Assembly: GCA_030739735.1 (NCBI GenBank)
Contig: JASLYQ010000021.1
Location: 1 to 49,401, forward strand
DNA length: 49,401 nucleotides
Source of the DNA: Alphaproteobacteria bacterium
Lineage (GTDB): Bacteria; Pseudomonadota; Alphaproteobacteria; UBA7887
Reading direction: 5' to 3'
Each line of letters starts with the position of its first letter. Positions within the stretch are counted from its first letter, which is position 1. Shown here one piece after another: positions 15,213 through 20,514 of this stretch. Below the pieces are notes generated by a model, which was not told where the DNA came from, made no database searches, and saw only the letters and a list, made by a program, of their open reading frames with translations. A program made the position numbers and the translations under genes.

Positions 15213-16316
15213 ATGAAACTGAAGACGACAATTTTCAGCACTGTCCTGATCGCCGCTGTGCTCGGCGGCGGAGCCTATGGCATGAATTGGTGGAAGATGC
15301 GACAGGTCGTCGTCACCACCGACAACGCCTATGTGCGTAGTGACGTGACTGCAATTAGCCCTCGTGTCGCCGGCTATATCGAGACCCTGCATGTGACGAG
15401 CAACCAGCACGTGACCGCTGGCCAACCGCTGGTGACGCTGCAGGCGGACCAGTACGAATCCGATGTCGATTCGGCGCGTGCAGATCTGCGTGCTGCCGAG
15501 GCCGAGATCGAGATCTCACGGGCCACCATCGCGAATATGGGCGCCCGGCGTGCCTTGCAGCAATCGCGCGTGCGCCAGGCCGAGGCGCGTGTGGAGGCGG
15601 CGCGGGCCCAGGCCGAGCAAGCTGCGCGCGAGGTCGAGCGATATAGTCAGCTGCTGGATCGTGGCACGGGAACACGCCAGAAATTTGAGGAGGCGACGAC
15701 CCACGACCGCACCATGCGGGCTGAGGTGACGCGCGCCCAGGCGGAGGCCGCAGCGGAACGCGCCGAACTGCCGGTGATCGATACCGATGTGCTGCGTATC
15801 GAGCGCGAGATCGATAGACTGCAGGCCAAGGTCGACCGGGCCCGCTCCGATCTCGATCGGGCCGAGATCGCGCTGTCGGACACAGTGGTGGTGTCGCCGA
15901 TCGATGGCGTGGTGGGTAATCTTCGCGTCGAGAACGGCATGTATACCGAGGAAGGTTGGCCGATGCTCTCGGTGGTGCCTTTGCAGACCACCTACGTCAT
16001 CGCCAACTTTAAGGAGACCCAGCTTGAGCGACTGCGCGTCGGCCAGGAAGTGCACATGGAGATCGATGCCTTCCCGGGCATGATGCTGGTCGGGTATATT
16101 GACAGCTTGGCGCCGGCCAGCGCTGCCGAGTTCAGCCTGCTGCCGCCGCAGAATGCCACCGGCAACTTCATCAAGGTGGTGCAGCGAATTCCGGTAAAAA
16201 TATTCTTCGACTTTCCGGCGGGCTTCGCGGCACGACTGGTGCCGGGTATGTCGGTAGTGGTCACGGTCGATACTCGTAGCGCCCCCCAGGGCGCGGCGCT
16301 GGCCGACGAGGGTTGA
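15213..16316 (+). CDS. HlyD/EmrA-type membrane fusion protein
   Basis: This is a periplasmic adaptor that links an inner-membrane exporter to an outer-membrane channel. The 367-residue protein begins with a short cytoplasmic tail and one membrane helix (TTIFSTVLIAAVLGGGAYG). TTDNAYVRSDVTAISPRVAGYI follows, the EmrA lipoyl-domain start, then a long Ala/Glu/Arg-rich coiled coil (about 75-215). The second lipoyl half is SPIDGVVGNLRVENG and the barrel is YVIANFKETQLERL. EmrA genes normally adjoin an EmrB (MFS) or another permease; none is present on either side. It converges with pqqA across a hairpin at 16358-16385. Confidence 0.9.
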   Translation: MKLKTTIFSTVLIAAVLGGGAYGMNWWKMRQVVVTTDNAYVRSDVTAISPRVAGYIETLHVTSNQHVTAGQPLVTLQADQYESDVDSARADLRAAEAEIEISRATIANMGARRALQQSRVRQAEARVEAARAQAEQAAREVERYSQLLDRGTGTRQKFEEATTHDRTMRAEVTRAQAEAAAERAELPVIDTDVLRIEREIDRLQAKVDRARSDLDRAEIALSDTVVVSPIDGVVGNLRVENGMYTEEGWPMLSVVPLQTTYVIANFKETQLERLRVGQEVHMEIDAFPGMMLVGYIDSLAPASAAEFSLLPPQNATGNFIKVVQRIPVKIFFDFPAGFAARLVPGMSVVVTVDTRSAPQGAALADEG

Positions 16317-16357
16317 AGGCGAGTAGTCGTTTCGGATTGAATAACGGTTAAACGAAA

Positions 16358-16385
16358 GTCGCCGGCCCCTTGCGGGACCGGCGGC
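16358..16385. terminator. GC-rich hairpin between convergent hlyD-type gene and pqqA
   Basis: GTCGCCGGCCCC (16358-16369) and GGGACCGGCGGC (16374-16385) form a 12-bp stem with one mismatch and one wobble around a TTGC loop. It sits 42 bp after the HlyD-type stop and 26 bp after the pqqA stop on the other strand. Only short, interrupted T runs follow on either strand, so it is a plausible bidirectional terminator and not a textbook one. Confidence 0.6.
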
Positions 16386-16410: not shown

Positions 16411-16485
16411 CTAGAGGTCGGCGCAGGCGTAACAGTTAATTTCGAGACCGACCGCAACTTCAACGATTACAGGCTTCGTCCACAT
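16411..16485 (-). CDS. pqqA: PqqA, ribosomal precursor peptide of pyrroloquinoline quinone (orphan)
   Basis: The 24-residue peptide starts MWTKPVIVEVAVGLEI. It holds the Glu-x3-Tyr pair that is cross-linked to make PQQ: E15 and Y19 in EINCY, at the spacing seen in known PqqA peptides. The N-terminal MWTKP and the VGLEIN segment are also typical of alphaproteobacterial PqqA. An AGGAG box lies 9-10 bases before the ATG, and a hairpin follows. PqqD/PqqE would bind the peptide and form the Glu-Tyr bond, and PqqB, PqqC and PqqF/G would finish the cofactor. None of those genes is in the window, so this copy stands alone, 166 bp downstream of a LysR gene on the same strand. Confidence 0.88.
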   Translation of the reverse strand: MWTKPVIVEVAVGLEINCYACADL

Positions 16486-16651
16486 GATCCGAACTCCTAA
16501 ATTTACCAAGCCTTCTGGCCTGTGTTGTGGCTAACTCTACGGTACCCAAACCCTTGGGACGCTGACGAGGCAACGCCCCGCATGACGAAGGCTACGGATT
16601 GCCCGCGCCATTACACTCTATAATGACTATAAAGAATCCTTATGGCGCGGC

Positions 16652-17692
16652 TCAGAGCGCTTTGAGGAGCGGTGGCAGGGGCTCGATGGGCGGCAGCTGT
16701 ATGGTCGCGCCGGCGGCTTTGACCATTTCGACGACGCTGACATAGGGCTCGATGCGCGCATATTGGGTAGGCAACAGGGCGACGATCTCGCGATTAGGCA
16801 GCGTTGTGCGGTAGAGCGTGACGGCAAACCCGCGCTTGGCGCCCAAGGCTGCCGTCAGGGCCGGGACTACGGCCACGCCGAGTCCTGCCTGGACCATAGA
16901 CAGCGCCACTTCGTAGCTGCGCGACTGGGCTATAACCCGGTAATGGGGTAGAACGTGCTGGTACCAGTCCTCGATGCGCTTTTTGTGCTGGTTGCCGAAA
17001 TTGAACTGGATGGTACTGTTGACGACTGTACGCTCTGTCGGTGCTAAATCTCGCTCCACGTCGCCCACATCCGAAAGGTCCAGCCCCTCAGGCACCGCCA
17101 GCACATAAGGGTCAGAGGACACTTTTTCTCTCAGGAAGCTGGCGCCGTCGCCGGCGGTCGAATCGGTTGCTAGTAAGGCCATGTTGATGCGGCGTCCGTA
17201 GAGTAGATCAACCGCTTCCGCCGGCGAGGATTCGTGAACGTCCATCTCCAACTCGGGATAACGCGTAGCCAAGAGGCGCAGCGATTCGGGCAATACGTTG
17301 CGGGCGATGGAACTGAGTGCCCCGATCGAAACCACGCCGCGGGTGCCGGCGGAGAACTCCTCCAGGCCGATCAGGGCTTCCTCAACGCTCGACAGAATAA
17401 CGTCGGCCTTGCGCAGCAGAAACTGACCGGCATCGGTGGGCGTCATCTCGTTACGGCTGCGATTGAAGAGCTGGGTGCCGACCTCTTCCTCAAGCTTGGA
17501 GATTTGCTGCGACAGCGAGGGTTGAGCGAGGTCGAGAATCTTCGATGCCTTGGTGAACGACTTGGCCTGCGCCACGGCCCAGAAGATTCGCAGCTGGTGC
17601 AACGTAACGGCGCTGGGATTAATCAGTGGTGGCGCCACAGCATCGGGAATGCTTGCGATATCCGCTTTCGCAACGGTGCTCGCCTTCGCCAT
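16652..17692 (-). CDS. LysR-family transcriptional regulator
   Basis: This is a LysR-type DNA-binding regulator of 346 residues with an unusual N-terminal extension of about 30 residues before the helix-turn-helix. The HTH spans VTLHQLRIFWAVAQAKSFTKASKILDLAQPSLSQQISKLEEEVG, written here in parts: TLHQLRIFWAVAQAKSF then LAQPSLSQQISKLEEE. The effector-binding domain begins at GVVSIGALSSIARNVLP and ends in IQLPPIEPLPPLLKAL. I took MAKASTV as the start because AGGAG is correctly placed upstream; the open frame extends 26 codons further without support. CbbR/CysB-like relatives share this layout. Its targets are unknown; pqqA lies directly downstream. Confidence 0.88.
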   Translation of the reverse strand: MAKASTVAKADIASIPDAVAPPLINPSAVTLHQLRIFWAVAQAKSFTKASKILDLAQPSLSQQISKLEEEVGTQLFNRSRNEMTPTDAGQFLLRKADVILSSVEEALIGLEEFSAGTRGVVSIGALSSIARNVLPESLRLLATRYPELEMDVHESSPAEAVDLLYGRRINMALLATDSTAGDGASFLREKVSSDPYVLAVPEGLDLSDVGDVERDLAPTERTVVNSTIQFNFGNQHKKRIEDWYQHVLPHYRVIAQSRSYEVALSMVQAGLGVAVVPALTAALGAKRGFAVTLYRTTLPNREIVALLPTQYARIEPYVSVVEMVKAAGATIQLPPIEPLPPLLKAL

Positions 17693-17929
17693 CACTCCTG
17701 CTCCTAGGTCAAATTCCACGCACGCAAAAGCGCGCGCCGCACGGTACGTCGGCAAATACCGCCTATTCAAGCAATACCGGTTATTCGTTCAGGGTTATTA
17801 GTTCAGTAAACTCGGATCAAGGTGCAGGTAGTCATAGCGGCCGGCTGATTCTACAATGACCTCGCGTGGGCCGCTGCTGTCGTTCACAGTCCAGGCGATC
17901 GGTACACCGGCGTGTCGATGCTCTATTCT

Positions 17930-18835
17930 TTAGAGCCTGCGTAACATCAGCAACCCGGCGAGCAGCCCGAAAAGCGCTGCGAGTGCGCCGATCGGGCCGG
18001 GACCCGGCACGGGCTCGATCCGCAACGGCCCAGTGAGGCCGGGGATACCCGGTATGTCGCCATCGCCCCCGGCGACGCGGATCTCGCCGCGCAGGCCTTT
18101 CTCCGTGTGCTGGGGCATGTCGCAATGGACCAGATAGGTGGCGCGGTTGCTGGGTAGGATGAAGGTTCCCGTCTTCTGCGCCTTGCCCGCCGCCTCCATA
18201 TGGAACATGCCTTGCGGGTAGAGGTAATGCGGCAGCCCGTGCACCATCCACTGGTGGCGCACGCTGTCCTCGTTGATGAAGGTCACGGTCAGGCGTGTGC
18301 ATGGCTCGACGTCGAAGACGTTGCGGTTGTAACCGAAAGTGGTGCCGGGATACCCCTCGGCATAATGGCGACCCGCGCGAACAGTTATCTCGATATCAGC
18401 AGAGATGGCGCTGCAATTCTCCGGCAGCGTGTCACGATTCTCGTTCATCACCATGCCCTCGTCGTCGAAGGTCATGGCCTGGTGGTCGTGGGCGCTATGA
18501 TCTATCGATGCTGTGTCCTCGGTCACCGCTGCGACCGTGATGCCGGGCGGCGCCAAGGCGATTGTGCCGATGCGGTAAATGTGGTCGCGCCCGCGTTTGA
18601 GGCTGAAGGTTACTATGTCGCCTGCCGCGAGATCTCCGGCGCTGACGTCTTCTGAGAGTTCCAGGTCCATGGTCATCTCGGGCCAGCCGATGCCGGGAAT
18701 GGGGTCATGGGTAAGGTTCAGGCTGCGCCCATCCTCAGCGATACGGTGGATGACGCCGACGCCGCTGGCCGCCTCGTCATCGGCCAACGCCGCCGCTGCC
18801 AGCAGCGTGATCACCAGCGCGAGAGCCCGCATCAT
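17930..18835 (-). CDS. CusF-like copper-binding domain fused to a membrane-anchored cupredoxin
   Basis: The 301-residue protein begins with a signal peptide (MMRALALVITLLAAAALA). Residues about 25-100 match CusF. H43, W51, M54 and M56 (H-x7-W-P-E-M-T-M) reproduce CusF's Cu(I)/Ag(I) site H36-W44-M47-M49 in spacing. A His-rich linker (IDHSAHDHQA) follows, then a cupredoxin domain (about 145-257) with copper ligands H194, C238 and H243 in VHCDMPQHTEKGL. Leu248 occupies the usual axial Met position. A C-terminal helix plus RRL (about 281-301) would anchor it. The start overlaps the stop of the multicopper oxidase upstream as ATGA. A periplasmic role in copper delivery or electron transfer to that oxidase is my inference. 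Confidence 0.85.
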   Translation of the reverse strand: MMRALALVITLLAAAALADDEAASGVGVIHRIAEDGRSLNLTHDPIPGIGWPEMTMDLELSEDVSAGDLAAGDIVTFSLKRGRDHIYRIGTIALAPPGITVAAVTEDTASIDHSAHDHQAMTFDDEGMVMNENRDTLPENCSAISADIEITVRAGRHYAEGYPGTTFGYNRNVFDVEPCTRLTVTFINEDSVRHQWMVHGLPHYLYPQGMFHMEAAGKAQKTGTFILPSNRATYLVHCDMPQHTEKGLRGEIRVAGGDGDIPGIPGLTGPLRIEPVPGPGPIGALAALFGLLAGLLMLRRL

Positions 18836-20514
18836 GCCCGCCGTCTGCGCATCAAGGCGAAGAGCACGGCCAGCAAGAGGCCGATATCGAGGCCGAACAG
18901 GATCGGTCGCAGTGTCGGCCAGCTCTCTGGCGCCACGTCAGCCAGGGTGCCGAGCGGGTCGTAGGTCTGCCATATGGGAACCCGCCCAGCATAAAAGGCC
19001 GGGCTGAAATAGGGGCTCCAGTCGACGCCCTGGAGTTTCGGCAGGCCACCATCCACGAGGTAGGATTCATAGACGATGGCGCTGATGCCGCCGCCGGGAC
19101 CGATGCCGTTATTGGTGACCGCGGGCGCGTGATGGTCGTGCATCAGCCAGACCCCCTGGCCATAGCTATGCAGGCCGTCGTCTACGGTCTCGAGTAGCAG
19201 GTCGGCGCGCTGCATTGGGGCCACCCAGACCACGTCACGGATCAGCTGGGTCGCGGGCGGCACTGGCACCCCGTCGGTGTGGGTGACGGTGACCTTGTGG
19301 CCATGGGTATGCAGGGCGACGCCTTCTGCGCCGCCGTTGGCCACGCGCAGACGCACGCGCTCGTTCGGCGCTACCACGATCAGGGACTCGCGCGCCGTAT
19401 AGGGGAAGGAGCGGCCATTGAGCAGAAAATAATCGGAGCTGCGTTCGGTGATGTCGTAGCGGCGGTGAATTTCCTTGATCACCCGTCGTGGATCGTTGGA
19501 GAGGCGCACCAGATCGTGCATCTCGCGATCCACCTCCTGATAGTGGAGGTCGTATTCGCGGTCGTAAGCCTCCTGACTGGCTTGCGAGCGCGCCCGCACC
19601 TGCCCAGCGCCGACATTGAACGTCTGCACGGGATTGTTTGGCCGGTTCTCTTCCACCACGAACATCGCTTGCAGACCCATCAGGATATGCACGGCGGGTT
19701 GCACGTGGCAGTGATAGAACATAGTGCCAGCTTGGCGTGGGGTCATCTCGTAGGTGCGGCTCTCGCCCGGCATCACCGGCATCTCACTGGTCAGAGGCAC
19801 GCCGTCGTTGCCATCGCCTTGGGCACCGACGTATGGGTGGTCGACGCCGTGGAAGTGGATGGTGTGGGGCATGGTATGGGTGTTTTCGAGGGTGATTTTG
19901 ACCGTGTCCCCCTGTTCGACGCGGATTACCGGTGAGGGCACGCGCAGTGTGCGATAGGCGGCGCTGTTCTCAGAGGTCTTGGTGGCCATTCCACGGCTTT
20001 TGGGTGCGAACACCCAGAAGCCTGGCCTGATGCCGGGGGCAATGGCGTAATCGAGCGACGGTGCCAGGCCGTCGGGCGATGCGCCGTTGAGTTCGGCCAC
20101 TTCGAGCCGCAGGTGAATCTCGTCTGCATCGCCGTCGCCGTCTCTGTCTGCGCCCTTGACCACGGCATCGGACGCAAGGCGCGTGCGCATGAGCACATCC
20201 GGTGACACGTTGTTCGTGCCCTTGACGAAAGCAGCCACCTCGGCCGGGGCGTCGGGATTGCAGCGCGGCGAAGCCTCGATCGCCACGCCGTCCAGGGTTT
20301 GCGCGGCGCGCCATTCCGGGAAGGGCTCGTTGCAGATAGCCTCGGTCGCGAGTTCGACCGGGGGTGAGCTTGCCGGCGGTGCCTCGTAAGCTGGTACTTT
20401 TCGGGTAAAGACCGCCTGCTGCCAGCTCTCCGGCCACCAAGCCGGCGGCGCCAGCACGATGCCCCCCACAGCAAGACCAAGCGTCAGCGCGATAAGGACG
20501 AGTGCTCTATACAT
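18832..20514 (-). CDS. periplasmic two-domain multicopper oxidase
   Basis: The 560-residue protein has an N-terminal membrane helix or signal (LVLIALTLGLAVGGIVLAPP) and a C-terminal helix ending MRRRRA. Copper motifs are MPHTIHFHG (H217, H220, H222), FYHCHVQPAVHILMG (H268, C269, H270, H276), LHTHGHKV and LMHDHH. The type 1 copper Cys is therefore in the first domain. In the second domain the matching Cys is replaced by Asp (HDH), as in two-domain oxidases that carry type 1 copper only in domain 1. An EF-hand-like loop (DRDGDGDADE, 123-132) precedes the first domain. Substrate could be Cu(I), phenolics or another metal; the CusF-cupredoxin partner downstream favours copper handling. Confidence 0.87.
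   Translation of the reverse strand: MYRALVLIALTLGLAVGGIVLAPPAWWPESWQQAVFTRKVPAYEAPPASSPPVELATEAICNEPFPEWRAAQTLDGVAIEASPRCNPDAPAEVAAFVKGTNNVSPDVLMRTRLASDAVVKGADRDGDGDADEIHLRLEVAELNGASPDGLAPSLDYAIAPGIRPGFWVFAPKSRGMATKTSENSAAYRTLRVPSPVIRVEQGDTVKITLENTHTMPHTIHFHGVDHPYVGAQGDGNDGVPLTSEMPVMPGESRTYEMTPRQAGTMFYHCHVQPAVHILMGLQAMFVVEENRPNNPVQTFNVGAGQVRARSQASQEAYDREYDLHYQEVDREMHDLVRLSNDPRRVIKEIHRRYDITERSSDYFLLNGRSFPYTARESLIVVAPNERVRLRVANGGAEGVALHTHGHKVTVTHTDGVPVPPATQLIRDVVWVAPMQRADLLLETVDDGLHSYGQGVWLMHDHHAPAVTNNGIGPGGGISAIVYESYLVDGGLPKLQGVDWSPYFSPAFYAGRVPIWQTYDPLGTLADVAPESWPTLRPILFGLDIGLLLAVLFALMRRRRA

Follow-up and report, generated by a model that had tools for sequence, protein, structure and literature searches.

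The window, the 49,401-nucleotide stretch of DNA analysed here, contains a short pqqA gene on the minus strand between the genes for a LysR-type regulator and an EmrA-type adaptor (Table 1). The LysR gene ends 166 bp upstream of pqqA on the same strand; its start is likely the ATG at 17692, with the longest frame opening at a TTG at 17770. The EmrA/HlyD adaptor gene is convergent downstream. These neighbours had been named in the original prediction, as had the 24-codon frame with its strong ribosome-binding site and its E15/Y19 pair. All are borne out, and the strand, absent from that prediction, can be added.

Table 1. Features of the pqqA locus, in window coordinates
Feature	Position	Strand	Description
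EmrA-type periplasmic adaptor gene	15213..16316	plus	convergent with pqqA; PF16576 and other HlyD-type families
Intrinsic terminator behind pqqA	16350..16385	minus	G+C-rich hairpin and T-rich tract
Orphan pqqA	16485..16411	minus	ATG at 16485, stop ends at 16411; 24 codons plus stop; product MWTKPVIVEVAVGLEINCYACADL
Ribosome-binding site AGGAG	16494..16498	minus	8 nt before the pqqA ATG
Putative LysR operator ATAAGGATTCTTTATAGTCATTATAG	16643..16618	minus	in the LysR-pqqA gap; matches ATWNG-N6-YNAT-N6-TATAG
Inner 15 nt of putative operator, TTATAGTCATTATAG	16632..16618	minus	T-N11-A kind
LysR-type regulator gene, proposed PQQ regulator	16652..17692	minus	PF00126 77.2 bits, PF03466 89 bits

In profile searches the product scores above the curated cut-offs of both PqqA families, with 30.9 bits for TIGR02107 (cut-off 20) and 28.8 bits for PF08042 (cut-off 21.1). 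A pqqA family search of 14 control genomes returned no matches. The core of the peptide has E15 and Y19 in E-x3-Y spacing, which is invariant across all orphan relatives. In its length, MW..P start, G-x-E-x3-Y core and scores above the cut-offs of TIGR02107 and PF08042, it is like the PqqA of canonical pqqABCDE operons. Its gene, unlike theirs, stands by itself behind a LysR gene and has a terminator of its own, with pqqB-E on another contig.

Orphan genes of this class (MWTKPV...) are found in six genomes of the family, in each case 114–194 bp behind an orthologous LysR gene on the same strand. The other family orphans are also preceded by GGAG-type ribosome-binding sites. Across the six genes pN averages 0.03 and pS 0.53. 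The peptide is identical in three of the six genomes, pairs of which differ by 9–14 synonymous changes; G002, from which the window gene has 9 synonymous differences, and G004, with 14, encode exactly the peptide of the window. An 11-pair consensus helix of the terminator is present in all six genomes, three of its pairs showing compensatory changes, and in each of the six a T-rich tract comes after it. Judged by this distribution and these substitutions, the orphan pqqA is old and under selection. Profile scores and codon-level selection together rule out a chance frame or a pseudogene. Relatives, to which the original prediction had looked for conservation and synteny, have kept the peptide, its E-x3-Y pair and its adjacency to LysR. 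In G003 the LysR and EmrA genes are still in place and no pqqA was found between them.

None of pqqB-E was seen among the frames of the window, as had been predicted; these genes are instead on contig C4 of the same genome. The assembly (2.64 Mb in 69 contigs, 98.8% complete) contains three pqqA genes. C4 has a full operon consisting of pqqA (MWSTPVVREIAVGLEINCYACADL), pqqB, pqqC, a 95-aa frame where pqqD would be expected, and pqqE, in that order. The identity of pqqE comes from TIGR02109 (554 bits). Those of pqqB and pqqC come from their position and their family relationship with the pqqB set, and that of PqqD from position alone. The orphan and C4 operon PqqA are identical over residues 11–24, including the cross-linked pair, and differ only at leader positions 3, 4, 7, 8 and 10. 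By its profile matches the product of the window gene is a bona fide PqqA, and the gene is an orphan only locally.

The third pqqA (MKWVDPAYCDLRLGFEVTAYVYVR) is on contig C1 (L004:3665-8190), where pqqD, a tandem pair of pqqE paralogues, a gene for a Urate_ox_N (puuD-like) protein and a gene labelled serC-like from sequence only come after it. The C1 PqqD is above the TIGR03859 cut-off. The PqqD and PqqE that a PqqA requires are therefore encoded in the genome, by C4 pqqE, the 95-aa C4 frame in the PqqD position and C1 pqqD. A second cluster of the order pqqADE-puuD-serC-pyrD is described from Hyphomicrobium and some denitrifiers, and has been proposed to serve PQQ synthesis without O2 (PMC12423496). 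The C1 cluster is alike in gene order, with the differences that it has a second pqqE and that an adjacent pyrD was not seen. PqqA-D-E1 of the C1 type recurs in G024, G247, G281, G197, G351 and G089. There are five PQQ alcohol-dehydrogenase-like genes in the genome, four above the TIGR03075 cut-off and the fifth below it. Two of the dehydrogenases contain the sequence WDYD. This sequence is typical of lanthanide-type PQQ dehydrogenases. The wider set of genes to which the original prediction had pointed, namely pqqBCDE (pqqDE included), further pqqA copies and PQQ dehydrogenases, is thus present in this genome. From the biosynthesis genes and the dehydrogenases we infer that PQQ is both made and used.

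Other arrangements of pqqA were also met. Two or three tandem copies directly precede pqqB at L217 and L220 (G089, G281) and at L207 (G351). The 1.4-Mb genome G016 has two PqqA-type genes (L046, L047) and no PqqB match at 93% completeness. Its relatives G250, G322 and G162 have pqqBCE, so that G016 may either truly have lost PqqB or have a gap there.

The association of this LysR with pqqA extends well beyond the family, in which the other five LysR proteins have 63–75% identity to that of the window. When a species-genome collection was scanned with the LysR alignment, the LysR-pqqA pair was found again in five MarineAlpha9-type MAGs (L056–L060), in which the orphan peptide reads MWKSP[VI]V[KL]EVAVGLEINCYACAEI. 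Three MarineAlpha9-type genomes also carry an operon pqqA copy, with Arg at position 8. In Alphaproteobacteria further removed from the family, the LysR orthologue is directly before a complete pqqABCDE, as at L054, L055, L062 (Marinimicrococcus), L063 and L081 (Devosia) and L069 (Cereibacter). The same LysR-headed arrangement is present at L011, L227, L230 and L233 in a survey of 386 genomes of the class. That survey found pqqA in 66 of the 386 genomes, many copies having neither a nearby pqqB nor a LysR, so that orphan status in itself is common.

In a tree of the LysR proteins these sequences form one clade (100/100 against the outgroup), within which linkage to pqqA is the rule across many families. 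There has been apparent loss of this linkage in the f72 genomes, in G003 and in Devosia-type genomes without pqqA. The LysR gene is thus kept where the adjoining pqqA is gone (G003, f72), and also in some Devosia-type genomes in which nothing matches pqqA; this LysR therefore probably has other targets.

A T-N11-A inverted repeat is the box expected for LysR proteins, and an element of this kind is present in the LysR-pqqA gap of the window. Alignment of promoters gave the longer pattern ATWNG-N6-YNAT-N6-TATAG, within which the short box CNAT-N7-ATAG is nested. The short box or its mirror is found in 21 of 30 pqqA promoters from LysR-bearing genomes versus 1 of 80 promoters without LysR, a comparison whose Fisher value overstates the evidence, because the same promoters were the source of the element and come from related lineages. 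A spacing of 7 stands out, with a weaker second peak at 20 reflecting a further downstream ATAG. Among distant operons headed by LysR, five have the perfect inverted repeat CTAT-N7-ATAG. A matrix trained on 11 operon-type promoters recovered all 11 orphan promoters, while between none and two of the 80 controls scored as high. The most distant linked operons (L062, L069, L227 and L230) have a weak box or none, and the orphan boxes are imperfect palindromes in four of the six family genomes.

The perfect CTAT-N7-ATAG was rejected as a regulon finder in the genome of the window. It has 8 sites there versus 37 for the reversed control, none of them at the two pqqA genes, and for this reason the longer degenerate form was used. 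This long pattern has exactly two sites in the 2.64 Mb, one at the orphan and one at the operon (C4:120770..120745). Likewise, it has exactly two sites in G002, both at its pqqA genes. There is one site in G003 and one in each of the f72 genomes, at the operon, and one each in G004, G006 and G008, at the orphan. The A+T-rich MarineAlpha9-type genomes have background matches to the pattern. No site is present in G001, a genome without a LysR match, where the promoter compared belongs to an operon-type peptide without an adjoining pqqB, pqqB being at the end of another contig. The C1 pqqA promoter has no such box. The best sites before the PQQ dehydrogenase genes have 1–3 mismatches, and these are not claimed as targets.

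The flanks of the LysR-pqqA pair vary between genomes. The EmrA-type adaptor scores 219 bits for TIGR00998, below the cut-off of 390.8. EmrA is beside this LysR in G000, G002 and G003, and is present with EmrB in the MarineAlpha9-type MAGs, where the gene order is polA ... LysR-pqqA, EmrB-EmrA (polA being labelled from its sequence alone). The polA side is retained in the g5 genomes, and the EmrA side in the genome of the window, G002 and G003. Together the flanks suggest a common ancestral site for the pair. No EmrA was found near the orphan pqqA in the g5 genomes examined, and EmrA was therefore rejected as a fixed partner; an association of EmrA with LysR-pqqA is possible. EmrB and EmrA converge on LysR-pqqA in the MarineAlpha9-type MAGs (L057:5191-7989), as does EmrA in the window, and it is possible that the Emr proteins are a PQQ exporter. 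The PQQ exporter is treated as unsettled in PMC7391723. On the other side of the window locus, upstream of LysR and on the same strand, a multicopper oxidase gene is followed by a gene matching CusF and Cu-oxidase_2 (17930-20514); in the other family genomes examined, neither was seen near the orphan.

Considered together, these features indicate that the orphan is probably a functional supplementary PQQ-precursor gene that shares regulation in trans with pqqABCDE through the neighbouring LysR. Because one rare DNA element is found at the two sites, control in common with the main cluster is the most likely arrangement. Transcription of the orphan would start in the LysR-pqqA gap and end at its own terminator. 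The LysR would bind the T-N11-A box in the gap and also, acting in trans, the matching box ahead of pqqABCDE. PqqA is consumed one per cofactor, and control by LysR, as an activator or a repressor and presumably through an inducer, would provide precursor in excess of the enzymes when the quinoprotein dehydrogenases need PQQ. The orphan peptide would then be cross-linked by the PqqD and PqqE of the operon and finished by PqqB and PqqC. Such a supply role fits with the report that PqqA supply is rate-determining in Methylovorus (cited in PMC11317620).

The suggestion that this is an extra precursor copy is therefore upheld by the complete C4 operon with its own, core-identical pqqA. That it is controlled separately holds in part. 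Promoter region and terminator belong to the orphan itself, but the operator-like box that it has in common with the operon promoter points to co-regulation. The other suggestion, of a precursor for a different compound, is supported by no difference in the core. A different peptide product was rejected, and is unlikely, because residues 11–24 are those of the operon PqqA.

It is rather improbable, though the most serious of the alternatives, that the orphan is a gene-dosage duplicate only. The shared element would then be a core promoter left from an ancient duplication of promoter and pqqA together, and the LysR a passenger or a regulator acting elsewhere. TATAG does resemble a -10 element, the class survey has many orphan pqqA genes with no LysR, and LysR is retained without pqqA in G003 and f72. 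However, the fixed-spacing inverted repeat is nearly absent from the 80 LysR-less pqqA promoters and perfect in the five distant LysR-headed operons, G001 has lost the long form along with having no LysR match, and linkage of the LysR clade to pqqA extends over many families.

A role outside PQQ supply, such as the handling of lanthanides or signalling to LysR, is very unlikely. It would sit well with the two dehydrogenases containing WDYD. It would also sit well with the orphan pqqA2 and pqqA3 of Methylorubrum extorquens, which are described as responding to the lanthanide source and for which a role in uptake is proposed (PMC11317620). The E-x3-Y core is nevertheless invariant, and in this genome it equals that of the operon PqqA; orphan and PQQ operon also have their control element in common. 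Only marginally more credible is that the orphan is a dedicated substrate of the C1 radical-SAM set, pqqD and two pqqE paralogues, for PQQ by another route or for a related compound. The C1 cluster has its own distinct pqqA, the orphan core is the one found in PqqA of the C4 operon, and C4 shares the box, which is missing from the C1 promoter. These points argue against a reading that draws on the extra PqqD and the two extra PqqE paralogues in the genome, and on the proposal of PQQ synthesis without oxygen for such clusters (PMC12423496).

Additional pqqA genes have been described for M. extorquens (pqqA2 and pqqA3; PMC11317620), for Hyphomicrobium (pqqA3-5; PMC9851590), for the Methylophilaceae, with 3–12 copies (PMC4109929), and for Methylovorus, with five (cited in PMC11317620). 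Those systems, as presented in these sources, and the genome of the window are alike in having precursor genes additional to, and separate from, a single full operon. What those descriptions lack is the link, present here, of the extra copy with an orthologous LysR and with an operator-like element that the operon also has. The LysR has the HTH_1 and LysR_substrate domains of LysR-type regulators with a T-N11-A box, and an inverted repeat near the neighbouring gene. It differs from them in being in tandem with, not divergent from, its proposed target, and in that the proposed targets are a gene for a 24-residue peptide and a distant operon. No LysR regulator of pqq was found in a literature search covering open-licence articles; a LysR-type gene figures in PMC7391723, which may or may not be akin to the present clade. 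Orphan pqqA genes were thus already known, while a dedicated LysR and its putative operator appear to be unreported in the literature searched.

The unnamed LysR clade may be a dedicated regulator of PQQ biosynthesis in many Alphaproteobacteria, recognising CTAT-N7-ATAG, a proposal that we regard as evenly balanced. The regulon would here be split between a precursor-only gene and a full operon, and a single sensor, of PQQ demand or of an intermediate of the pathway, would adjust precursor supply and enzyme level jointly. Additional pqqA genes occur widely and little is understood of how they are controlled, and a conserved pair of regulator and precursor with a rare shared operator-like box is a testable regulon. 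The LysR-pqqA pair offers a way into the question of why cells maintain surplus precursor genes, and a means of locating short pqqA genes that may be overlooked in gene calling.
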